Below, one piece after another: positions 513 through 15,326 of a stretch of DNA of 33,231 nt. Position 1 is the stretch's first letter. Every line of letters begins with the position of its first letter. The position numbers and the translations under genes are program-made. The stretch is from IMG/VR virus record IMGVR_UViG_3300037847_000679, positions 1 to 33,231 of that record. One strand, written 5' to 3'. The notes under the pieces are model-generated. The model did not search any database. It worked only from the letters and a program-made list of their open reading frames with translations, and was not told the origin of the DNA. The stretch is from a virus.

Positions 513-554
513 TAACTAAAAAAGGGGAGCTCGATTGAACTCCCCTTTAGTTAC
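512..554. terminator. Bidirectional intrinsic terminator between convergent genes
   Basis: The arms are GTAACTAAAAAAGGGGAG (512-529) and CTCCCCTTTAGTTAC (540-554), with a 10-nt loop. They pair over 15 bp, leaving three A residues of the left arm bulged. Read on the minus strand, the GC-rich stem is followed directly by TTTTTT, a classic Rho-independent signal ending the long late operon. Read on the plus strand, it follows the RNR stop with a weaker TTT tail. Its position between two convergent genes supports a two-way role. Confidence 0.85.
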
Positions 555-2966: not shown

Positions 2967-3431
2967 TTAAATTGTTTTATACTTTGTTCTATTGTACTCG
3001 TCTTTATATGCTTTTAAACATCTATTTCTGTTGTCTTCATCAGAAACGTATGATATATGTATCCAATTAGGATTCATGTCTGTACCAAACTCCCATATCA
3101 TTTGATCAAAGTTTAAATTTTCTTTAACCCAATGATACATTTCAGCATTTGTTTTACAACCATAAACATCATCAACATCAATTGCTTGACCTTTACAATG
3201 TTGTGAAGTTTTTGAACCACCGATAGCTTCATTAAGTTCTGGTGATCTAAAAAATGAATTAACTTTTATTGGTCCACCAACCCAAGCTCTTAATGGTTCA
3301 AATATTTTTTCTGCTAATACTTTCATGTTTTCTACTTGTGTAGGATTAGGAGTATTATCTATACCTTTACGCTTAGCGGTTTGTGAATGTATTGCTTCTG
3401 CGTAAGTTATATGTTTGCTTATGTTTTCCAT
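2967..3431 (-). CDS. M15-family zinc peptidase, probable endolysin
   Basis: This 154-aa single-domain protein matches the M15 (Peptidase_M15_3 type) fold of phage endolysins and D-Ala-D-Ala carboxypeptidases. Visible signature: substrate-side FFRS (R62), zinc-binding SQHCKGQAIDVD with H78 and D85, a downstream WEFG (E114, likely catalytic base), and NWIHIS with the third zinc ligand H125. Enzymes of this family cut peptide bonds in peptidoglycan stems. There is no signal peptide, so it needs help to reach the wall. The one-helix membrane protein two genes upstream in the transcript (3990-4277) is the best nearby holin or spanin candidate. The size is normal for the family and all key residues are present. 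The start ATG is 1 nt from the stop of the 49-aa gene upstream. Confidence 0.9.
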   Translation of the reverse strand: MENISKHITYAEAIHSQTAKRKGIDNTPNPTQVENMKVLAEKIFEPLRAWVGGPIKVNSFFRSPELNEAIGGSKTSQHCKGQAIDVDDVYGCKTNAEMYHWVKENLNFDQMIWEFGTDMNPNWIHISYVSDEDNRNRCLKAYKDEYNRTKYKTI

Positions 3432-3432
3432 A

Positions 3433-3582
3433 TTATTCTACTTCGCTAAATACAGCGTAGACACGTATATTTCTTTTTCTGCCTTTGCGTATTGTAGCTA
3501 TTAGTTCTTTACGATCTTTAACTTCCTCTTCTTTTACAGGATAGTATTTAGGATTCGTACTATTTAATTTTCTTTTTTTCAT
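3433..3582 (-). CDS. Small basic hypothetical protein, 49 aa
   Basis: An ATG at 3582-3580 opens a 49-codon frame ending in TAA at 3435-3433. It fits between the stop of the thioredoxin-like gene (3584) and the start of the peptidase gene (3431) with 1 nt on each side, the same spacing as other genes in this operon. That is the main reason to believe it. The product begins MKKRKLNSTNPKYYPVKEEE and contains a basic IRKGRKRNIRVYAVF stretch near the end. It has no membrane segment or cysteine. Function unknown. Confidence 0.65.
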   Translation of the reverse strand: MKKRKLNSTNPKYYPVKEEEVKDRKELIATIRKGRKRNIRVYAVFSEVE

Positions 3583-3583
3583 T

Positions 3584-3988
3584 TTAAAATTGACTAGCAG
3601 TATTTACCTCATCAACTGCTTCTTGTATTTCATTTAAATCTGCCGGTAACATTAAATCTAGTCCTGCTTTAAAAACGGTTTCTTTAATACCATCTTTAAA
3701 TATAATTAATGTCGGCGCCATACGTACCTTATATTTCTTTTTAGCAGCTGGGCACGCAGCTATATCTGCTCTATAATATATAACGTCTTTAAGTTCTGAC
3801 CACTGTTCAAACTTGTTCGCATCATTAAACTTAGCGTAAAACTCTACAATTACAGGTTTGGTTTGATCATCACCAAAAGCTTGTCTTTCATTTATCTTTT
3901 TATCAAAGTTACCATCTGTAATCCACTCTACTTCTTGAGCAGACATGCTAAATGATAATAATAATAAAATTATATTTAAGTATTTCAT
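3584..3988 (-). CDS. Secreted thioredoxin-fold protein lacking the CxxC active site
   Basis: This 134-aa protein starts with a clear signal peptide (MKYLNIILLLLSFSMSAQ, residues 1-18, cut likely after SAQ), so the mature form should be periplasmic. The rest follows a thioredoxin fold: a beta strand PVIVEFYA (45-52), a helix, a strand DVIYYRADI (68-76), then KYKVRMAPTLIIFKDG (85-100) with the conserved cis-proline P92 and the final strand-turn. Where WCxxC should sit (residues 51-58) the sequence is YAKFNDAN, so no redox pair exists; the only cysteine is C79. It therefore cannot do thiol exchange in the usual way. It may instead act as a structural or binding protein, or as a partner of the neighbouring barrel protein. 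The fold is well supported; the role is unknown. Confidence 0.78.
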   Translation of the reverse strand: MKYLNIILLLLSFSMSAQEVEWITDGNFDKKINERQAFGDDQTKPVIVEFYAKFNDANKFEQWSELKDVIYYRADIAACPAAKKKYKVRMAPTLIIFKDGIKETVFKAGLDLMLPADLNEIQEAVDEVNTASQF

Positions 3989-3989
3989 A

Positions 3990-4277
3990 CTATCTTTGTT
4001 TACTTTGTATATCGTACAATCGTTGATCTATCTTATCAATTGTTTCTTTTATCTCCTCTACATCTTCTTGCGTATCCATAATTGTTTGACGAATTAATTC
4101 ATCTTTTAAATCATATTCTACTCTATCAATAACTGGTTTAGGTAATTCTTTAGCAAGAGCTATATCAGCTTGCATTACAAAGTATAAGCTAGCTAATGAC
4201 ACTACTCCTCCTATTATTATTCCTATTGTTTTAAGATCAAGTGTTACTTTAGTATCTTCACCTATTTGATTTGCCAT
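3990..4277 (-). CDS. Single-helix membrane protein with C-terminal coiled coil; holin or inner-membrane spanin candidate
   Basis: This 95-aa protein has a short polar N-terminus (1-13), one hydrophobic segment (about residues 17-37, IGIIIGGVVSLASLYFVMQA), then a long charged region with heptad-like spacing (about 53-92, ending DIQSKQR). The topology is one transmembrane helix followed by a soluble coiled coil. It sits two genes upstream (in transcript order) of the M15 endolysin, separated by the thioredoxin-like gene and the 49-aa gene. That position and shape fit a holin, a pinholin or an i-spanin-type protein, since i-spanins are also one helix plus a periplasmic coiled coil. No sequence motif decides between them. 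It ends 1 nt before the start of the secreted thioredoxin-like gene. Confidence 0.7.
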   Translation of the reverse strand: MANQIGEDTKVTLDLKTIGIIIGGVVSLASLYFVMQADIALAKELPKPVIDRVEYDLKDELIRQTIMDTQEDVEEIKETIDKIDQRLYDIQSKQR

Positions 4278-4278
4278 T

Positions 4279-5463
4279 TTATCTTAGTGTTATATTTAAA
4301 CCTACTGAACTGTTATATATTTTACTATCCCAAAACTTAGTATATTCACCTTCAACAAATATACCTATGTTTTTGTTAAGCTTCCAACCAAACTGCACTC
4401 CAGTTTGATAATCTTCCCATTGCTCGTGATCTGAGTCTTGTCTTAATCCACCTAATCCCCAGTTATTTCTATTTAAATAACTAAAATCAACATCACCTTT
4501 TACATACTTGTGATATGGTAGTAAATAAGAACCATAAGCATGAAGCCAGAAATTATTTTTATAATGATAAAAGTCAAAACCGACCACAGGTGATACAACA
4601 CCAAACGGATCTAATAAATCCCATTGCTCGTTATTATAACGATTAATTAGTGATTCAAATATAGTATCACGGAATTGTAAATCAGTATAAGCCACTTCAT
4701 TTCCTTGTGGATCATACCAATAGTAATCATAAACATCTTCACCATCAATATTAATAGTAACCCATTGATCAGTATAACCATAGTTATATCCTAATTGATA
4801 CCAATAGTTAACTGGCCAACCATTTTCATCTGTCTCATTTAACCATATTTCAATTGGATTATAACCGTAAGCTCTTTCATGTGTACGATACATAGCTCCG
4901 GCAGATATACTAAACTTTTTACCAATAGGTAATTTAGCTCTAACCTCAGCAGACTTATAGTTAAAATTAACTTTACCTTGTTTTCTACTTTCAAGCTTAA
5001 CAATGTGGTGTTTACCACTATGTTTTAAGAAATATCGATGATTTTTGAAAACATCATCTCTGGATCTTTCTTTTTCAACATGTATAACGTATTCTAAACC
5101 TTTAATAGATGAATTAGGAGCTGTCATAGCTACGTTAGATTCAGTTCCATCGTAGTATTGTTTACCCTTAATTTCATAATCAAATCTTGCTATCTTACGA
5201 ATACCAAAACCATAGCGATAATCAAAGTCATAATAGTCTGTACCATCAACAACAACAGGTGGTGTATACAAATTACCATCAGGATTTGTTCTTACAAAAT
5301 AATCTTTTGGATTTTCTCTAGGATTTTTAATATCACCTGCTACATATATAGTACCGTATTTAAACAGCTCGTCATAAACAGATTTAAATAAATTCTTTTT
5401 CTCTTGAGCATTAGCAGAGACCGCAATAACCGCCGCAAATAGGACACATATTATTTGTTTCAT
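4279..5463 (-). CDS. Secreted outer-membrane beta-barrel-like protein
   Basis: This 394-aa protein has a signal peptide (MKQIICVLFAAVIAVSANAQ, residues 1-20) of Bacteroidota type. The mature part is rich in Tyr, Trp, Asn and Asp with many alternating polar/aromatic stretches such as FSISAGAMYRTHERAYGYN, NFWLHAYGSYLLPYHKYV and YQTGVQFGWKLNKNIGIFVE. The last segment is a strand-like YNSSVGLNITLR. This is the look of an outer-membrane beta-barrel, with paired strands GVQFGWKL / IGIFVEGEYTKFW / SVGLNITLR at the end. The terminal residue is Arg rather than the usual aromatic, so recognition by the host BAM machinery is uncertain. Its start overlaps the stop of the upstream gene by 4 nt (ATGA). Placed beside endolysin and membrane-protein genes, it could aid outer-membrane disruption or mask the phage receptor. 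Function is inferred only. Confidence 0.72.
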   Translation of the reverse strand: MKQIICVLFAAVIAVSANAQEKKNLFKSVYDELFKYGTIYVAGDIKNPRENPKDYFVRTNPDGNLYTPPVVVDGTDYYDFDYRYGFGIRKIARFDYEIKGKQYYDGTESNVAMTAPNSSIKGLEYVIHVEKERSRDDVFKNHRYFLKHSGKHHIVKLESRKQGKVNFNYKSAEVRAKLPIGKKFSISAGAMYRTHERAYGYNPIEIWLNETDENGWPVNYWYQLGYNYGYTDQWVTINIDGEDVYDYYWYDPQGNEVAYTDLQFRDTIFESLINRYNNEQWDLLDPFGVVSPVVGFDFYHYKNNFWLHAYGSYLLPYHKYVKGDVDFSYLNRNNWGLGGLRQDSDHEQWEDYQTGVQFGWKLNKNIGIFVEGEYTKFWDSKIYNSSVGLNITLR

Positions 5464-5690
5464 TTTTCATTTTTTCTTTTTTTACGTTTTTTTCTTTTTT
5501 TCTTCTCCCACTCTGTAACAACATAAGATCTAATAGTTATTTCTTTAGGCTCTACACAGTGATTTGTTTTAATTACTTTTACCTTATAGTTAGGTAATTT
5601 TTCTTCTTCAACAGTAATACATTTTTTTATTTGTTGAGAAAACGTAGTTGTTGAGATCAATAATAATAAGATTAAAATAGTGTTTTTCAT
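5460..5690 (-). CDS. Small secreted protein with polybasic tail, 76 aa
   Basis: The ATG at 5690 is chosen over an in-frame start at 5756. It places a perfect signal peptide (MKNTILILLLLISTTTFSQQ) at the N-terminus and leaves 1 nt after the stop of the 25-aa gene, whereas the longer form would overlap that gene. The mature part is about 57 residues with two cysteines (IKKC and TNHCVEP), which could form a disulfide in the periplasm. It ends in an extremely basic tail, KKKRKKRKKRKNEK. There is no lipobox before a cysteine, so it is probably not a lipoprotein. The polybasic end suggests electrostatic binding to the outer-membrane inner face, lipopolysaccharide or peptidoglycan. It overlaps the start of the barrel gene by 4 nt, so the two are probably co-translated. 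Confidence 0.65.
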   Translation of the reverse strand: MKNTILILLLLISTTTFSQQIKKCITVEEEKLPNYKVKVIKTNHCVEPKEITIRSYVVTEWEKKKRKKRKKRKNEK

Positions 5691-5691
5691 T

Positions 5692-5769
5692 TTATTTGTA
5701 TTTTTTAAACATGAGTTTGTATAATAGCTTGTTCCAAGCCGCTTGTAATTTGTCAATAAATTTTTTCAT
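5692..5769 (-). CDS. 25-aa cationic amphipathic peptide gene
   Basis: An ATG at 5769-5767 opens a 25-codon frame ending TAA at 5694-5692. It lies 2 nt after the stop of the giant virion gene (5772) and 1 nt before the start of the next gene (5690), so it fills the space exactly. The product starts MKKFIDKLQAAWNKLL and ends in KKYK. It has eight lysines and one aspartate (net about +7). Large hydrophobic residues at positions 4, 5, 8, 12, 15, 16 and 19 fall on one face of a helix. This is the pattern of a membrane-active peptide. Being so short it could also be chance, but the packing argues for a gene. Confidence 0.5.
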   Translation of the reverse strand: MKKFIDKLQAAWNKLLYKLMFKKYK

Positions 5770-5771
5770 AA

Positions 5772-8700
5772 TTATGGTTTTTTATAGTATTGTATAATTC
5801 CGTCGTATCTTTCTATTGCTATATAATCTACACCTTCTTTTAAACCTTTTGGTATACCATTTTTCCAAGATTTTGCTCCTGTAAATGGAACTCTTTTAGT
5901 AAATCCATTTGATTTAGCATACTCTACTTGAGCTTTAAATCTTTTCTTTAATCTTTCTAGTTCTTTTTCTTCTTTCTTTATTGTACTTTCTCTACCCCAA
6001 TAAGGTAAACCAAAGTTCCAACCGTTCCAACCAAGCAATAAAGCTACTCTTTCAAATGTTCTTACATTTTCATCAGTTGCTTGTCTAATATTATTTATTT
6101 TTCTAAATAATCTATCAATAGGTATATTTGTTGCTCCAGATATAATTGAAGATATAGCTATATAAGCAGGATTATCTAAACTCCAACCTCGCTTTTTTAT
6201 GTCTGCCATGTTCCAGCTAAATGTTCTAAGTCCATTTCTTATGTTACGAACTTTTGTATCTATAACTGGTGATATATCAAATAAATTAAATAAAGCTTCT
6301 TCGTATTCCGGAGTTTTCTTACCTGCTTGATAATCTAATTCTCTTATTACGTTTTTAACTGTAGATATTAGTGCACCACCAAAACCAAGACCAAACAATA
6401 GAGAATCTACCATACCATTTATAGTATCAGCTGTTTTATTTCTATCTTTTTCTTCTTCATCTTCAAATGCTACAGCAAATAGAGCTTGTTGTAAAGAATT
6501 AAATACTAAGTTTTGTACAGCTACATAATATATAACACCAGATAAATTACTTAAATCACTTTCACGCTGTGTCATGCCTGGTCGTCTTCTTCTATTAATT
6601 AGATCAAGCAACATTTTCTTAGCCTTCCTGTTATATTGCATTGTAACGTTTTGGAAAGATAATATTAAACGACCAAATAAACTAGCTTGCTGAGATGATA
6701 TTTTACTAGGATTACTAGACTGCTGAGTTTCTTCTGCTATATCGTAAAAATCTTCAAACGCTTGTTGTTTAGCTTCAGCTTTAGTATATTTTTTACCAGT
6801 CTTTTCGTTTGTTCTATTTAATAAAGATTTTTGTCTATTCATATAGAAAGTAGCACCACCTGTAGCAATTGCTAAACTATCAAATATTCTTGTAAGTACA
6901 AAACCTTTATCAAGTAGATATGCTAACATACCTTTGAAACCACCTTTTTTTGCAGCCGCAGCAAGTTCAGCTTCATTAACATTTATCTTTAAACCATCAC
7001 GTCTATTTACCAGATAATCAGAGTTCATTAACTCCATAACTGTTGGAACATAATCTTTGCTTAAAAAAGCTTTAGCAGCTGCATATATATTATTATCACC
7101 CCAATTTATAAAGTTTACATTAGATAACATCTGCAACGTACCAGATCTCATATTAAGGAACATCGCTACAGCAACAGAGCCGTTTAACCAGTCCATCATT
7201 TCATTAACTTGACGTGATCCACTTCCTTGATATGTAGGTCTATTTGAACCTGTTTCCATACGTTTTAAAGAATCACGTAAAGCTTCTACATACTTAGAAC
7301 CAAAAGCAGCTTCAAGCTTGTTCATGTTTTTAGGAGAAAATATTACATCAACATTATCTTTCCACTCAGTTAATAATTCTTTTCTAAAACTTTTGTCTAA
7401 ACTACTTAGTATATCTGATTTAATATCACCTGCTATCCAGTAAGCTGTAGGTGCAGGATATTGTTGTTCTTTTTGTATTAACTGTATATTATCAGCAAAT
7501 TGTTTTAGTTCATAATCTGTGTTAACAGCTTCTACTAAAGCATCAATATCTGCTTGAGATATACCAGGTATTTCCATACCTTGTTTGTTCCATAAATAAA
7601 CTCTTACAGCCTGTGATTTATTATAAGGTCCAACACCTATATCATCATTTAATGGGTTTGAGAACATACCTTTTACACCTTTTTTATTTTTTAATGTAGG
7701 AAAAGCTTGTTTCAACGCATTAAAATCTTTTGCTACATTAATTTTAGCAGATATTAATTCTTGTTCTGCTCTGTTATAAGGCACTATTAAATTATCTCTA
7801 ATCCATTTTTGCTGTCTCGTACCAGTTTCACCTTTACCAACTATGTACTGTACTAATCCTAAAAAGTCATCGGCTGATGCAGTTATTGTAAGCTGCTTCA
7901 TTAATCTTCTAAAAAACCCTTTATCTTTTTTTCTACCTTCAAGCTTAGCTCTAACATCAGATATTTCTTCATCAGCTTTAATACCAGTTTTATCTTCTAG
8001 TATTTCGTTCATTTCTTTATCAAGTCTAGTAGCTTTATCTGCAATAGCTTGTTGAACTCTAGATTTGACATCTAGTTGACTTAGTATGTCTTTTACTTGT
8101 TGTACATTTAAAGCTGAATCATCTGCGAAATAAAAATCATTATATCCTTCAGCTGCTTTACTAAGAAACCAATCAGCTTTTGCTTGTGGTGATCCGTCTT
8201 CTAATGTTATAATATTTTCTAAAGGTATATTTAAACCTATATTGTCTAAAAATACTTTAATAGATTCTTGTGCTGCGCCAGGTCTAGCTGTAACAACATA
8301 TATATCTTTTGGTCCGTATTTACCTTGTCGCCTTAACGCTGTGCCAGCTAATGGACCTTTTTCTGTTGATAAATCTACATTATCAAAATTTCTGTAATCA
8401 AACTCTGCGCCTTGCTCTGATAAACCTTCATATTCTACAGCGAACTCACCTGCAGTTAATTCACCTTTTGTACCATCTGGCATTGTATATAATACTTTTT
8501 CTTTTGTTAAAGCTAAAGTATCGTCCATGTCAAAAGCACTTAATCCTTTACGTTGTTTAAATATTTTTAATCCTTTTATTTTAGCTATTAAAGAATTTAA
8601 TAATGTTTTCTTAACCTGCTTAGATGTTCTAGGAACTCTACAAGGTGATGTACATCTCTTTTCTAATATCTGTTCTGTATATTCTTGTATATTTAAATTT

Positions 8701-11700
8701 TGAGCTGCAGCGTCTTTTGCTATTTTAAGAGAAACTGCAAAATCTTTTAACACTGTAGCTTTGTTTTCGCCTTGTTGTAATCTAGTTATAGCTTGGTTTT
8801 GAACTTCAATTACATTAGGAACTTTTCTGAATCTTTTATCTACTTGAACACCATAATATTCTGCTATAGTTACACCGTGCTTAGTTAATATGTATTGATT
8901 AGGATTTATAACATTTGAATCTGTATATCTTACTAAAGAACCTAAACCTTGATAAACTTTTGATATATTACCATCTCTTAATCCAGTAAACACAAGATTA
9001 AAAGCTTCATTCATCTTAGATTTTAAACCTTGATTTGCTAAAGCAGCATGCTCAGTAGCTAACATAGCACCTTGTATATAAGATCCTTTAACTATAGGTT
9101 TAATAATACTCATTTGATCAGTAGCGGCTCCGTATAATAATAATCTAGCTAAATTTTGAGCTGGTAAACTATGTTCTTCATCTATTCTAGAAGTAAAATC
9201 AGGTTTACCTGTATTTATATCAATAGGGTAAAATGCATAAGGCGCAGCTATTCTAACCATGTGATTCATGTTGTTACCGCTATCATCAATTATACTATCG
9301 AATACGGGTAAGTATTTCATGTTATCACCTTCACGTAAAAAACTACCTAAATCATCAAATAAATCTAGAACATCATCTAAGTTTTGTTCACTATAAACTA
9401 TATCTACAGCGTTTGTATCTAATGTACCTTTTTTATTTTTATATCTAGTTCTGTTTTGTTCTAAAGTAGAACCTTCAGCTCCAGGAATAGCGTTGTCAAA
9501 CTCTGAAACAGTATTAAAATTTAATCTCTTACTTCCAGTCATAGAAGATTTAAGTAGCTCAGTATATTTTTTTCTTTTAGCAGGATCTTCTATAGTATCT
9601 AAAAATTCATTTATACCTTCTTCTCTTAATTCTCTAAATGTTAATTTTGTAGAAGCATCTTCTTTTGAAGCTATTTCAGACAACTGATCTAAATCATAAA
9701 TTATTCTTGATTTTTGTTTGCCTTTTGTTTTACCTCTTTGTCCTATATATTTTTCTTTTTTAACAGGTATTTTTTTAAAACCTAATATACTAGATAATGA
9801 TGTTCCTTCTCCATCTCTGGTAAATTCAAAATAAGTATCAGAGTCTTCTAATTTAACTTTATTTTTAGCTTTATCTATTTTCTTTTGTAATCTTTCTTTA
9901 GCTAATTGTTCTCTTGATTTCTTTTTATCTCTTTCTTTTATAGCTCTTCTACCATCAATAGGACCAGGAGGAGGAGAACCACCTGCAGCTGCTTCTTGAC
10001 CTGTAATAACATCAATTCCAGCATCTTCAACCGCTTGTGGGAAATTTTTAAATTTTTCTTGTATAGCAAGTTCTATGTTTTGTCTATCTTCACCTGTTGC
10101 ATTTTCAAGCAAAGCTCTTAATTCATCAGCACTGTTTTGAGTTTCTAAATTTTGTATCTCTGCTTTTCTTTGTTTAAGCTGTTGTTCATTTCTAGCGGCA
10201 AGTATTCTATTACCTATTTCACGGTTTTGCTCTATTAAATTATCTATAACAGCAATACCTTCAAGTTGTTGAGGTTGAGGTTGAGCGTCAACCACATCTA
10301 ATGAAGTATCTTCTTTTGTTCTAGGATCTAATTTATTTTCAAGAGTTTCCATAAACTCAGCAGCTGTGATTTCACTATCAGATAATGCGGTTTCTAATTT
10401 AGCCATAAAATCTGTATCTTGTGACAACTCATTTAAAGACTCTAAAGCAAAATCATTTGCTAAGATTTGATATAATGATTGTTGTCTTTTTTCACCAGCT
10501 AAAAAATAATCTTTAAATTCTTGTAAACCTTGTTGTGTAATTTGAGGTATGCTATATACAGGCTTGTCAAATCTACTTATCTTACCTGATTTACCAACTT
10601 GTTTTGTTTTTGTAGTACCTATTTTTTTAATACCAAATAGTTTACCAAATCTTCTTTTTATTGTAGCAGCAGGTACAGATTTAATAAAATCTGAATCGAA
10701 AGAATTTACAAAATCTTTATATGCTTGACTAGCAAAAGTACCTATATCTTTTCTTAATTGTTTAAAATAATCTTTTTTAGCATTTTCTTTTATTATACTA
10801 GCTGTAGTCGCAGGATTGTCGCCTTTATTTGCAGCTAATAATATATCTTTTTGTAACTCGTCTTTAATAATAGCTTTAGTTTCAGATACATCTTGATCTT
10901 GTACTTGATCTGTTTGAGATGAATATACTTTTTCTCTTGCTTCACTAACTTGACCTTCATCAAAATCTACTTGTTCTTCTGTATCTGCAACTTCTCTAGC
11001 TTCTTCTCTATCTAAACTTTGACCTCTTCTACCTATACTAGCTTCTTCATATATTTCTTGAGCTTTAGGTTTTAAAGAATTAGTTACATAAGTACTCCAT
11101 GTTACACCTTTTGAAGGATCAAAATTGTTTATAATAGGACCAAGTCTAGAATTAATAGCTTCTAAAACTCTATTTCTTGGTATTGTACCCGCTTCTTTAC
11201 TAAATCTAATTGCTTCTAAATATAAGTTTTGATTATTATTTATCAATGCTTCTTGAGCTTGATTTCTAGCTGCTTGACTAATACTATCATCTTTTATAGT
11301 TTCAAGTAATGTTTCATTTATACCATCATTTGAATCATCTACTTGTATTTCTGTATCTGTATCTGTATCTGCGCCTGTATCTGTATCAGCTTCATATACA
11401 GTTGTATAAGAACCATCTGCATTTCGCTTTTCTATTTTAGCAACATCATCTTTAGTGTAACTTCCTTTTAACCAACCGTCTCCTAACTCTTTATTTTTAA
11501 TTTGTACTCTACTGTCAGTTTTAGCTATATCAAAACCTTTATCTTTTTTATATGTAATTCTATAATCAGAATCTACACCTGTACTAACTTCATCAGAAGT
11601 GGTTACATCTATTCTATCTTTTTGTCTTCTACCTTCAATTGTTTTACCTTCAAGAATTGCATCTACCTCAGATTGACCTACATATCTATAAACATTTTCA

Positions 11701-14700
11701 TCTGTCCAATCTATACCGTATTTTTCTAATCTTTCTTGAGCTTCAATATCACCAGCTCTAGCTTTATCTATATCTGTATCTAACTTATTTTGCTTTTTAG
11801 TTTCTTTACCAAGACCTATAGTATCAAATAAACCGTCTAAATCTATTATACTATTTTTTATTGTACCTTCTCTAGGAGTTTGATAAGTTTCAATTATTTC
11901 TTTTATTTCTCTATTTACATCGTTTAAATCTTGAGTATTACCATTTGCTTCATTTATAACTCTATCATCTATTCTTTTTATTTCATTTTCAAGATTTTTC
12001 TTTCTTTGAATTAAATTTTGTAATCTTATTCTAGCTTTTCTTTCAGTTACAGTAGCAGGAACTTTCATAGCCGCTTCTCTAATCGCAGAAATATTATTTA
12101 TAATAGATCTTTTAGTCGGCATTGATAAAAGATTATCAGCATCAATCTGTTCTTTCATCATTTTAAAAGCGTCATCTGCTATCATAAAACTTTTACTACC
12201 AGGAGTAGACATATTATAATTTTCTACTATTTTTTGAGCCTGATCTGTGTACATGTTATTTTGAGCCGCAGCTACATTAACATTTTGAAATGAACTTATA
12301 GCACCACCAACTCCACCTGTTAACATACCTATTCTCCAACCCATTTCAGCTTCTTTAGCTATTGCTTCTAAATCTATATTTTCAGTAAGTACAGCTCCTA
12401 TTCCTTTGCCAGCCATATCCATACCTTCACCTAACTGCATAGTATTTATAGCTACTTGACCCATATAACCTTGAAAACCTTCAGTTGCAGCTTCTATAGC
12501 AGAATCTATAGGTAATGCAGCGAGTGTAATACCGCTTCTTGTTAACCATCTAGAAAATACATTTTGCATTAATCCTCTTGCTGCAGCGTTTTTTAAAAGA
12601 GTAGCAGACATATTACCTGTTAGTCTAGCACCTGCATATCCCGCAACAAATTCACTTAATGTAGTACCAGCAGCTGACATCACAGGAGCTAGTTGAGCAC
12701 CATATCTATCTTGCTGCATAGCCTGTATGTATTCTTCAGTGGTAAAACCATCTTCACCGAACTCTTTCTGCATTTGTCTTCTTGTGCCTTCTATAAAAGT
12801 ATCACCATAAACTTGACCACCCATATATAGAGAACCAGCAGCCTGTAAAGCAATACCAGCAGGTATCAAAGCTGAGCTTCCACCAGCAGTAAAAGGAGCA
12901 GCGGCAGTACCAACTGTTTGAAGTATACCACCTACAACCATTGGTAACATATGTGGAGCTTGTGATATTAATTGAGCCACAGTGCTATCTTCTAGTTTAT
13001 CACGATCTATAAGAGTACTCCACTCTTCAGCATCAGCTAATTCCTCAAGATCCTCTGTTATATCTGCTATAGTGTTGTCATATCTTGATTTTCTTTGATC
13101 AAAAAACGCGCCTAACGAGTCATCATCGTCCCATAAGCTCCACCATTTTTGATAATCATCAACTTGTTGATTTATTTTTCTAGCTTCACCAACAGTCATA
13201 TCTCTAGTTAACGCTCCGTCTATTCTTTGTTGTAAAGTTCTTCTTTCACCATCATATGCGTCATAAGGTCTATCATCTAGAATATATTTACCTTTTTCTT
13301 CGTCCCAAATTACATAATCATCATTATTAAAAACACCTTTATATTGAAGATCTTTTAATAATTCTAGGTTTTCACCATCTTTTAATCCTTGTTTTACAGA
13401 ATCATATCTTTCAAATCTATCTTCTAATTCAAATCCTTCTTGTAAAGCAATTTCTAATTTATTCATTGTTGCTTTCATTTGAATACCAGTGTCTACTGCT
13501 GCTTCTCTGTATGTTTGAAAATCCATGTTTCCAAAACTAAACATATCTACAGCTCCTGTAAATAAATTGTCTAAAATATCTCCTTTACCAGATCTAACTT
13601 CATCAATTTCTCTTAACACGTTGCTATCTAGCCAACTATCATAATTATATCTTTTATATTTTTGAGCAAATTCACCAAATAAATCATTAGTAATTACACC
13701 ATATTCTTTGTATAATCTTCCTAGTGATTCATTTTCTGTAAGTTTTTCTTTATAAGTATTATTATACCAATCAACAAAATCTTTTTCCATTAACAATTGA
13801 TCTTCTTCAGATATATTTCCATCTTCATCTTGATACCTGTCTCTTAAATCAAGTGTATATTGTTGAGCTTCTTCCATAACTTGTTTTTGAACCTGTTCAG
13901 AAATAAACTGCATTCTAGGATCATCTTTCATTGCTTTGTTTAAAGTATCACTATATGCTGTTACCATTTCTGCTTCTCCAGCGGCTTTAGCTTCGTCATA
14001 AGTATATTTTTCACCCGTATCAGGGTTTATCATTTTCATGAAGTCGTCTTCATTTTTTATATCAGCAATCTCTGGTAGCTTAGTTTTTATATAAGCTTCT
14101 GCTTCTGGATCTGTTATAGACAACTCAGATAGTTCTTCAGCTGATAGCTCAAGATCACCTCTAATATAAGCATCATATCTTTCTTTTTGCTTATTTATAT
14201 AGTCAGTTTTAATTTTTTCAGCCGCAGCTCTACCTTCTTGACTTACCCAATAATCATAGCTAGGTTCACTTCTTTGACTAGGATGTGGTGATACAAAAGG
14301 ATCTGTACCACCTTCTCTTGTGTTAATATAATCTATACCATCATAAGGATTTTCATCATTAGTATATGAAAGGATGCCAGGCCTTAAATCATTTCTATCA
14401 ATACCTGTTCTTTCTAAAAACTCTTCATCTGACAAATCTTTATGTTTTAAAGAAATATCATTGATAAATTTATCGGTCATGTAGTTTTTCCTAAGATTAT
14501 AATTCTTATCAAATCTACTATTGTGATCTACATATAATGATAAATCATTAACATCATATTTAAATTCAAGACCTTTAGGGAAAGAAGCTTGTATATTATC
14601 TAACTTGTTTTGTAAAGCTTCAAAATCAGTATTACCATTTTCATCTACAGGAACTTCACCACCACCTAATAATAATTCATCAATTGTTTGCTGTAGTGCT

Positions 14701-15326
14701 TTTACTCGTTTTTCGTAATTAGTTCCTTCTGTAGTAGTAGCGAGTTCATTATAATTCTTAGCTACATCAATATCCATGTTTTCAACTACTACGTATTTTT
14801 TAATATCACGCGGATCTGCTGCTTCCACCTCTCCAGTTCCTAACAGATCGTCTATTAATTGCTGTTCTTCATCAGGATTTTCAATTTCTTTTGGATCTTT
14901 TAATTCGTCACCAAATAATGATTTATTCCATGTATTAAAATCTGACGTTACTAAATTTTTTGCTTTTAAAAAACTATGTAGTTTTAATCTATATTTAGGA
15001 TTATTTTTAGCGTGTGTAACCCAGTTTTCATATTCACCAGCACCTTTTTTAGTAATAAGTTTTCTATCTAATAATTTATTATATAAAAACTTAGCATGCT
15101 TTTCATTACCTGTTGATAAAAAACTACTTACATCAGAAGGTATTTCTTTTTTCTTTTCTGTTTCAGGCTGTTTATAATCTTTATGTGATTTTAAATAACC
15201 TAACATTCTGTCTCTACCATAATCAACAGACTGTTGACTTGTATCTTTTATGGTGAATTTTGGTCCTCCTTTTTCCCAATAAAGACTTTTTAATTGGTCA
15301 TAGGTTAAATTATCTAAATCTTGCAT
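5772..15326 (-). CDS. Giant polyvalent virion protein (3184 aa) with HAD phosphatase and sigma-like segments
   Basis: An uninterrupted 3184-codon frame, placed after the nozzle and internal-protein genes, in the position of the T7 gp15/gp16 internal proteins that are ejected with DNA. Visible modules: acidic, helix-rich N-terminus (1-780); Gly/Ala-rich hydrophobic segments near 790-840 and 972-1012; a YRYVGQSEVDAIL...TTS segment (about 1205-1300) faintly like ADP-ribosyltransferases; an acidic DT repeat near 1312-1330; a sigma-70 region 2-like segment (about 1345-1440) with NNFDPSKGVTWSTYV; a basic stretch near 1790-1830; a HAD-type phosphatase (about 2258-2420) with FDMDDTLA, VTARP and YFADDSA; and a C-terminal region with hydrophobic helices near 2927-2952 and 2968-2992. 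The mix of enzyme and helical linker modules is that of the 'large polyvalent proteins' of phages. The HAD catalytic motifs are complete; the other modules are less sure. Role: probably packaged and injected early effector plus DNA-ejection channel. Confidence 0.85.
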   Translation of the reverse strand: MQDLDNLTYDQLKSLYWEKGGPKFTIKDTSQQSVDYGRDRMLGYLKSHKDYKQPETEKKKEIPSDVSSFLSTGNEKHAKFLYNKLLDRKLITKKGAGEYENWVTHAKNNPKYRLKLHSFLKAKNLVTSDFNTWNKSLFGDELKDPKEIENPDEEQQLIDDLLGTGEVEAADPRDIKKYVVVENMDIDVAKNYNELATTTEGTNYEKRVKALQQTIDELLLGGGEVPVDENGNTDFEALQNKLDNIQASFPKGLEFKYDVNDLSLYVDHNSRFDKNYNLRKNYMTDKFINDISLKHKDLSDEEFLERTGIDRNDLRPGILSYTNDENPYDGIDYINTREGGTDPFVSPHPSQRSEPSYDYWVSQEGRAAAEKIKTDYINKQKERYDAYIRGDLELSAEELSELSITDPEAEAYIKTKLPEIADIKNEDDFMKMINPDTGEKYTYDEAKAAGEAEMVTAYSDTLNKAMKDDPRMQFISEQVQKQVMEEAQQYTLDLRDRYQDEDGNISEEDQLLMEKDFVDWYNNTYKEKLTENESLGRLYKEYGVITNDLFGEFAQKYKRYNYDSWLDSNVLREIDEVRSGKGDILDNLFTGAVDMFSFGNMDFQTYREAAVDTGIQMKATMNKLEIALQEGFELEDRFERYDSVKQGLKDGENLELLKDLQYKGVFNNDDYVIWDEEKGKYILDDRPYDAYDGERRTLQQRIDGALTRDMTVGEARKINQQVDDYQKWWSLWDDDDSLGAFFDQRKSRYDNTIADITEDLEELADAEEWSTLIDRDKLEDSTVAQLISQAPHMLPMVVGGILQTVGTAAAPFTAGGSSALIPAGIALQAAGSLYMGGQVYGDTFIEGTRRQMQKEFGEDGFTTEEYIQAMQQDRYGAQLAPVMSAAGTTLSEFVAGYAGARLTGNMSATLLKNAAARGLMQNVFSRWLTRSGITLAALPIDSAIEAATEGFQGYMGQVAINTMQLGEGMDMAGKGIGAVLTENIDLEAIAKEAEMGWRIGMLTGGVGGAISSFQNVNVAAAQNNMYTDQAQKIVENYNMSTPGSKSFMIADDAFKMMKEQIDADNLLSMPTKRSIINNISAIREAAMKVPATVTERKARIRLQNLIQRKKNLENEIKRIDDRVINEANGNTQDLNDVNREIKEIIETYQTPREGTIKNSIIDLDGLFDTIGLGKETKKQNKLDTDIDKARAGDIEAQERLEKYGIDWTDENVYRYVGQSEVDAILEGKTIEGRRQKDRIDVTTSDEVSTGVDSDYRITYKKDKGFDIAKTDSRVQIKNKELGDGWLKGSYTKDDVAKIEKRNADGSYTTVYEADTDTGADTDTDTEIQVDDSNDGINETLLETIKDDSISQAARNQAQEALINNNQNLYLEAIRFSKEAGTIPRNRVLEAINSRLGPIINNFDPSKGVTWSTYVTNSLKPKAQEIYEEASIGRRGQSLDREEAREVADTEEQVDFDEGQVSEAREKVYSSQTDQVQDQDVSETKAIIKDELQKDILLAANKGDNPATTASIIKENAKKDYFKQLRKDIGTFASQAYKDFVNSFDSDFIKSVPAATIKRRFGKLFGIKKIGTTKTKQVGKSGKISRFDKPVYSIPQITQQGLQEFKDYFLAGEKRQQSLYQILANDFALESLNELSQDTDFMAKLETALSDSEITAAEFMETLENKLDPRTKEDTSLDVVDAQPQPQQLEGIAVIDNLIEQNREIGNRILAARNEQQLKQRKAEIQNLETQNSADELRALLENATGEDRQNIELAIQEKFKNFPQAVEDAGIDVITGQEAAAGGSPPPGPIDGRRAIKERDKKKSREQLAKERLQKKIDKAKNKVKLEDSDTYFEFTRDGEGTSLSSILGFKKIPVKKEKYIGQRGKTKGKQKSRIIYDLDQLSEIASKEDASTKLTFRELREEGINEFLDTIEDPAKRKKYTELLKSSMTGSKRLNFNTVSEFDNAIPGAEGSTLEQNRTRYKNKKGTLDTNAVDIVYSEQNLDDVLDLFDDLGSFLREGDNMKYLPVFDSIIDDSGNNMNHMVRIAAPYAFYPIDINTGKPDFTSRIDEEHSLPAQNLARLLLYGAATDQMSIIKPIVKGSYIQGAMLATEHAALANQGLKSKMNEAFNLVFTGLRDGNISKVYQGLGSLVRYTDSNVINPNQYILTKHGVTIAEYYGVQVDKRFRKVPNVIEVQNQAITRLQQGENKATVLKDFAVSLKIAKDAAAQNLNIQEYTEQILEKRCTSPCRVPRTSKQVKKTLLNSLIAKIKGLKIFKQRKGLSAFDMDDTLALTKEKVLYTMPDGTKGELTAGEFAVEYEGLSEQGAEFDYRNFDNVDLSTEKGPLAGTALRRQGKYGPKDIYVVTARPGAAQESIKVFLDNIGLNIPLENIITLEDGSPQAKADWFLSKAAEGYNDFYFADDSALNVQQVKDILSQLDVKSRVQQAIADKATRLDKEMNEILEDKTGIKADEEISDVRAKLEGRKKDKGFFRRLMKQLTITASADDFLGLVQYIVGKGETGTRQQKWIRDNLIVPYNRAEQELISAKINVAKDFNALKQAFPTLKNKKGVKGMFSNPLNDDIGVGPYNKSQAVRVYLWNKQGMEIPGISQADIDALVEAVNTDYELKQFADNIQLIQKEQQYPAPTAYWIAGDIKSDILSSLDKSFRKELLTEWKDNVDVIFSPKNMNKLEAAFGSKYVEALRDSLKRMETGSNRPTYQGSGSRQVNEMMDWLNGSVAVAMFLNMRSGTLQMLSNVNFINWGDNNIYAAAKAFLSKDYVPTVMELMNSDYLVNRRDGLKINVNEAELAAAAKKGGFKGMLAYLLDKGFVLTRIFDSLAIATGGATFYMNRQKSLLNRTNEKTGKKYTKAEAKQQAFEDFYDIAEETQQSSNPSKISSQQASLFGRLILSFQNVTMQYNRKAKKMLLDLINRRRRPGMTQRESDLSNLSGVIYYVAVQNLVFNSLQQALFAVAFEDEEEKDRNKTADTINGMVDSLLFGLGFGGALISTVKNVIRELDYQAGKKTPEYEEALFNLFDISPVIDTKVRNIRNGLRTFSWNMADIKKRGWSLDNPAYIAISSIISGATNIPIDRLFRKINNIRQATDENVRTFERVALLLGWNGWNFGLPYWGRESTIKKEEKELERLKKRFKAQVEYAKSNGFTKRVPFTGAKSWKNGIPKGLKEGVDYIAIERYDGIIQYYKKP

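Follow-up and report, generated by a model that had tools for sequence, protein, structure and literature searches.

A late-operon cassette of a Bacteroidota podovirus as a candidate lysis module with a predicted outer-membrane barrel

The window analysed here comprises the 33,231 bases of the virus record IMGVR_UViG_3300037847_000679, a genome fragment from an uncultured marine podovirus of Bacteroidota that is akin to the elemo phages. Its capsid protein shares 42–48% identity with those of Maribacter phage Panino, MW202828 and the Flavobacterium elemo phages. The late genes are located on the minus strand in the order C-terminal part of the terminase, portal, capsid, other virion genes, a 3184-aa gene, the cassette and four further genes. 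All seven tightly packed genes of the cassette reported in the initial annotation were found; they are co-directional and are separated by 1–2 nt or overlap by 4 nt. The cassette follows the 3184-aa late gene and lies upstream of an intrinsic terminator of the late operon (521..548, minus strand; a 12-pair stem and a T-run), which faces a convergent gene. The operon continues beyond the last cassette gene to position 594, and no terminator-like site was found on the minus strand between 7000 and 548. Compared to relatives, the median dN/dS values are 0.14 (M15), 0.13 (b49), 0.19 (TRX), 0.20 (TMCC), 0.18 (BARREL), 0.32 (pb76) and 0.07 (amp25, only four usable pairs). These low values indicate purifying selection; the seven open reading frames are therefore genes and not chance occurrences. 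The signal peptides of the secreted cassette proteins end ahead of a Gln, and a corresponding Q rule has been described in Bacteroidota (PMC10367356).

The last cassette gene (M15; 2967..3431, minus strand) codes for a peptidase of 154 residues, which is a cytoplasmic-type endolysin judged by its sequence. It matches PF08291 with an E-value of 1.9e-17 (63.8 bits at a cut-off of 23.2) and the endolysin family phrog_894 with 7.4e-32. The zinc-site motifs SxH..D and WIH are contained in the stretches SQHCKGQAID and NWIHIS, and the protein lacks a signal peptide. A sequence search of the PDB identified no relatives at an E-value of 0.001. The adjacent gene b49 (3433..3582, minus strand) codes for a basic protein of 49 residues, which is conserved in 34 loci. 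It is followed by the gene for TRX (3584..3988, minus strand), a secreted protein of 134 residues whose thioredoxin fold, suspected from the beginning, is supported by PF00085 (2.8e-7, above the cut-off), by an AF2 model with a pLDDT of 86.5 and by Foldseek matches to thioredoxins (E-value 1e-7). The active site motif CxxC is, however, replaced by FNDAN, and the cis-Pro is retained. Among 137 homologs, none contains CxxC and all contain the cis-Pro; TRX is therefore probably not an oxidoreductase. Residue Q18 is invariant in the alignment.

TMCC (3990..4277, minus strand) consists of 95 residues. The alignment indicates one hydrophobic segment, a single transmembrane helix, which precedes a coiled coil with indels of seven residues, i.e. 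of one heptad. This architecture is that of an inner-membrane spanin subunit (i-spanin), if an N-in orientation is assumed. In some relatives, a lipoprotein gene (LP143) is located upstream of TMCC, and in most of these loci the two genes overlap by exactly 32 nt, which corresponds to the arrangement of a spanin pair. LP143 was considered as a replacement of TMCC; this was rejected, because the TMCC gene is present and overlapped by that of LP143. In one 54.9 kb contig, LP143, TMCC and TRX are kept and BARREL was not found. Divergent TMCC relatives occur in SAR11 phages, where they adjoin M15 or are immediately followed by terminase genes. The Rz gene of phage T7 is likewise located immediately upstream of terminase genes.

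BARREL (4279..5463, minus strand) is a predicted secreted outer-membrane β-barrel of 394 residues. The AF2 model (pLDDT 70, moderate confidence) shows 12 long strands with a large, conserved loop at about residues 200–286; the signal peptide was judged by eye. A comparison by means of VIA yielded Z values of 13.6 for KdgM and of 11.2 for OMPLA, the latter being below those of general porins. A known enzyme barrel was considered and not adopted, as porins and autotransporters are resembled about equally and no match is decisive. The best BFVD match is A0A516LKJ4 (23% identity). At least 559 relatives were found in viral contigs. A cellular origin was rejected as well: the six genome matches lie on MAG contigs with the same cassette and a phage-like appearance.

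The two remaining genes code for small proteins. As had been noted, pb76 (5460..5690, minus strand; 76 residues) possesses a Sec signal and a polybasic C-terminus; it also contains two Cys residues and was found in 16 loci. The first cassette gene, amp25 (5692..5769, minus strand), encodes the peptide MKKFIDKLQAAWNKLLYKLMFKKYK of 25 residues. It had been described as cationic and amphipathic; the peptide is indeed strongly cationic (net charge +7) and conserved, with homologs in 54 loci, but the calculation gives no significant helical amphipathicity (moment 0.33, P 0.13). In about 50 of the 54 loci amp25 directly follows the giant gene, and in three loci it is located inside the cassette. It is regarded as a candidate for an accessory membrane-active factor.

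With M15 as a query, 462 related places in viral contigs were identified, and the genes surrounding M15 and BARREL matches were clustered. Furthermore, 50 loci with sufficient flanking sequence were collected by means of BARREL, independently of M15. TMCC and TRX are present in all 50 of these, and M15 or an amidase in 46. Additional hydrolases are an endolysin of the phrog_33083 type (L157) and a PF01832 glucosaminidase (L166). The suggested test for conserved co-occurrence with the endolysin thus gave a positive result: the envelope triad TMCC-TRX-BARREL lies near a murein hydrolase in at least 48 of the 50 loci. In the neighbourhood of the triad, two loci (L163 and L164) yielded no endolysin. 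Among 50 long contigs, 49 contain TMCC, 46 BARREL and about 46 TRX, most relatives being incomplete contigs. Three gene orders were distinguished. Group a, to which the window belongs, has the order giant gene, amp25, pb76, BARREL, TMCC, TRX, b49, M15. In group b, the order is TMCC, TRX, BARREL, M15, a holin with three transmembrane helices (3TM), and fibres; in group c, an Amidase_2 (PF01510, 2.3e-12) takes the place of M15 in the order TMCC, TRX, BARREL, Amidase_2, 3TM holin. The same capsid family is shared by groups a and b and by the single long contig of group c that was tested. This family is absent from two contigs of 111 kb (G044) and 88 kb (G048), both of which contain the triad; the triad thus exists in at least two viral backgrounds. 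In G044, the triad adjoins a phrog_33083-type endolysin, and in a shorter contig the glucosaminidase is about 3 kb away. The triad is thus kept through changes of gene order and of the hydrolase, for which four unrelated types were found (M15, Amidase_2, phrog_33083 and PF01832 glucosaminidase).

The initial annotation had treated the seven genes as one unit. The genes are real, but the fixed core consists only of TMCC, TRX and BARREL plus some murein hydrolase; the proteins of 25, 76 and 49 residues are optional among relatives. Co-inheritance of the whole triad was assessed by correlating distance matrices. It is clear for TRX and TMCC (0.64–0.86) and inconsistent between samples for BARREL, whose correlation with TRX is 0.76–0.88 in groups a and b and 0.46, equal to that of M15, in the BARREL-seeded set. 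A tblastn search of 50,697 phage records with BARREL, TRX, TMCC and LP143 gave no real match, and no isolate carrying the triad was found in this collection. The proposed restriction to Bacteroidota seems to apply to the full triad, but not to TMCC, given its divergent relatives in SAR11 phages.

The reported absence of a holin is an edge effect. A 3TM holin-family gene (phrog_3427 / GTA_holin_3TM-type) occurs once in 47 of 50 long relatives and adjoins the endolysin gene in groups b and c. The closest long relative (G001) carries it at 57366–57821, about 2–3 kb upstream of the terminase sequence, which follows at 60148. The corresponding holin gene would lie just past the end of the window, which stops too soon to show it. 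Scattered genes, accompanied by a normal holin and a spanin at other sites, had been named as evidence against a common lysis function; of these, only the holin was found.

Every frame of the window, itself a fragment, and of relatives was scanned for spanin lipoproteins with a simple lipobox pattern. Neither the window nor G029 yielded a lipobox reading frame, and the candidates in G042 and G049 are implausible, antisense or off-frame. In G001 and G040, LP143 is the one plausible lipoprotein, and it would qualify as the lipoprotein subunit of a two-component spanin. A protein combining a lipobox with a C-terminal transmembrane helix, as expected for a unimolecular spanin, was not found in the same scan. 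The absence of a recognisable spanin thus extends from the window to three scanned relatives: no plausible lipoprotein, and therefore no classical o- or u-spanin, was found in them, and both types appear to be absent from the triad-only genomes examined. In the survey of Kongari et al. (PMC6139136), about 13% of the phage genomes have no recognisable spanin, among them Bacteroides phage B124-14 and Croceibacter phages. For Bacteroidetes phages, a survey from 2025 lists unimolecular spanins only (PMC12596118). How spanin-less phages break the outer membrane has been stated as an open question (PMC6139136; PMC12819732), and Kongari et al. remarked that "an OMP could act as an o-spanin" (PMC6139136).

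On balance, we lean towards the interpretation that the cassette is a holin-dependent lysis module in which TMCC, TRX and BARREL, instead of spanins, would accomplish the outer-membrane step. Most likely the cassette is a lysis module; the endolysin, the late operon, the linkage to hydrolases and the holin-family gene in relatives are observed. Contact among TMCC, TRX and BARREL and the disruption of the outer membrane are what we infer. The 3TM holin would open the inner membrane at a programmed time; its gene probably lies outside the fragment, a short way upstream of the terminase. The wall would then become accessible to the M15 endolysin, a protein without a signal peptide, and be cut by it. 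The inner membrane would hold TMCC, with its coiled coil reaching into the periplasm if the assumed orientation is correct, and BARREL would be seated in the outer membrane. The periplasmic TRX may link or regulate these two proteins. Once the wall is gone, the triad would bridge both membranes and the outer membrane would be disrupted, possibly aided by amp25 as a disruptin-like agent.

Three other readings are less well supported than the lysis function of the triad. The triad might be a late module for envelope remodelling or superinfection exclusion that merely shares the operon with an ordinary M15 endolysin; BARREL would then be a receptor mimic or porin and TRX and TMCC its assembly helpers. 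The resemblance of BARREL to general porins and autotransporter barrels is consistent with this explanation, as are the phage-encoded porin-like proteins known in the BFVD library and the two loci without an endolysin found near the triad. However, exclusion genes are usually early and variable between relatives, whereas the triad belongs to the late operon, is present in nearly all relatives (46–49 of 50 long contigs), and keeps a murein hydrolase as its neighbour although hydrolase type and gene order have changed several times. Given also the purifying selection on BARREL, we consider this explanation unlikely.

That TMCC itself is a single-helix holin, with BARREL, TRX and amp25 as accessories and another role for the 3TM protein, is still less probable. 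It is true that 12 of 35 TMCC members match the "holin" family phrog_1296 (best E-value 4.1e-5) and that in group a TMCC is closer to M15 than the 3TM gene. However, 47 of the 50 long relatives have a single 3TM holin-family gene, which in groups b and c is a neighbour of the endolysin gene, and TMCC is present in these groups as well. Moreover, a few TMCC members weakly match the Rz-like spanin families phrog_7686 and phrog_739, and in many loci TMCC overlaps a lipoprotein gene. Finally, amp25 (amp45 in group b) could be the main outer-membrane disruptor, analogous to the disruptins, which are short amphipathic antimicrobial peptides of spanin-less phages (PMC12819732), and the triad would do something else. 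The charge, the number of loci and the low dN/dS of amp25 would fit this role. Yet amp25 is absent from many loci with a triad that is itself almost never missing, for most copies the fixed neighbour is the end of the giant gene and not M15, and the amphipathicity is not significant; this explanation is therefore highly improbable.

The lysis function of the triad suggests a wider and more tentative proposal, namely that a three-layer trans-envelope machine of coiled coil, CxxC-less TRX linker and barrel may replace lipoprotein spanins in a large group of marine Bacteroidota phages. If this is true, BARREL would be the first outer-membrane barrel known to act as an o-spanin. A barrel-based lysis system of Bacteroidota was not found in the open literature searched, and a barrel-containing design that replaces spanins appears to be previously undescribed. 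A large uncultured marine clade appears to lack spanin lipoproteins and carries a conserved barrel-containing triad beside its endolysin. The triad is a concrete, expressible set of candidates for outer-membrane breakage by spanin-less phages.

Compared to two-component spanins of the lambda Rz/Rz1 class (PMC6139136), TMCC has the same combination of one helix and a coiled coil, assumed to be periplasmic, and would have a partner in the outer membrane. Further common features are the late-region site near the endolysin, the lack of a catalytic domain and, in relatives, the overlap with a lipoprotein gene. In contrast, the partner encoded in the window would be a 12-strand barrel and not a lipoprotein, and a CxxC-less thioredoxin-fold protein is added. 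Like the disruptins, whose archetype is that of phiKT (PMC12819732), amp25 is a short cationic peptide in a phage without spanins; unlike these, it has only 25 residues, is weakly amphipathic by calculation and is optional. In the Pelagibacter phages HTVC027P (gp15–gp17) and HTVC041P (gp46–gp47), a TMCC relative is located beside an M15 peptidase or terminase genes; HTVC027P gp15 matches phrog_20984, a TMCC relative, with 4.1e-32. These phages differ in their alphaproteobacterial host, and no recognisable BARREL or TRX was found in them by tblastn of the phage records. The Flavobacterium elemo phages and Maribacter phage Panino share the capsid family (42–45% identity) and a late-region endolysin with the window; their endolysins differ from that of the window, and no triad was found. 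As a lead only, elemo gp32, which combines an N-terminal helix with C-terminal β-strands, may be a one-protein counterpart.

Single proteins encoded near the endolysin were found in an elemo phage of Flavobacterium (L004, 12429-12983), in MW202828 (L003, 9670-10293) and in a 111-kb contig (L157, 9563-10030). Each consists of an N-terminal helix or signal, followed by a periplasmic or coiled-coil stretch and by C-terminal beta strands. It is possible that these proteins are one-protein inner-to-outer-membrane spanners of Bacteroidota phages.

Small YfiM/VanZ-like membrane proteins occur repeatedly in the cassette (L011, 5379-5702; L136, 11069-11437; L077, 3565-3795), often occupying the position of the 25-residue cationic peptide or of the secreted 76-residue protein. 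Their match to the YfiM model (2.2e-8) lies under the model's own cut-off. In one related contig (G005; L012 and L025), two differing copies of the thioredoxin-fold and M15 genes are separated by approximately 67 kb; this contig is perhaps a chimeric assembly.

Downstream of the M15 gene, the window encodes a PAP2-type phosphatase (1572-2123; PF01569, 1.3e-7), which only some relatives possess. A Pfam domain search of the 3184-residue late gene product (5772-15326) gave no significant match; by eye, a HAD-like stretch (FDMDDTLAL) and a sigma-like stretch were noticed. The convergent plus-strand ORF at 141-512 ends in CLSCDG and, judged by eye, encodes the C-terminal end of the large subunit of a ribonucleotide reductase.

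In SAR11 phages, relatives of the coiled-coil membrane protein are followed by small proteins whose N-terminus is hydrophobic and which contain two cysteines (L168, 6386-6610; L170, 3225-3440); these proteins are reminiscent of the window's 76-residue protein (5460-5690).
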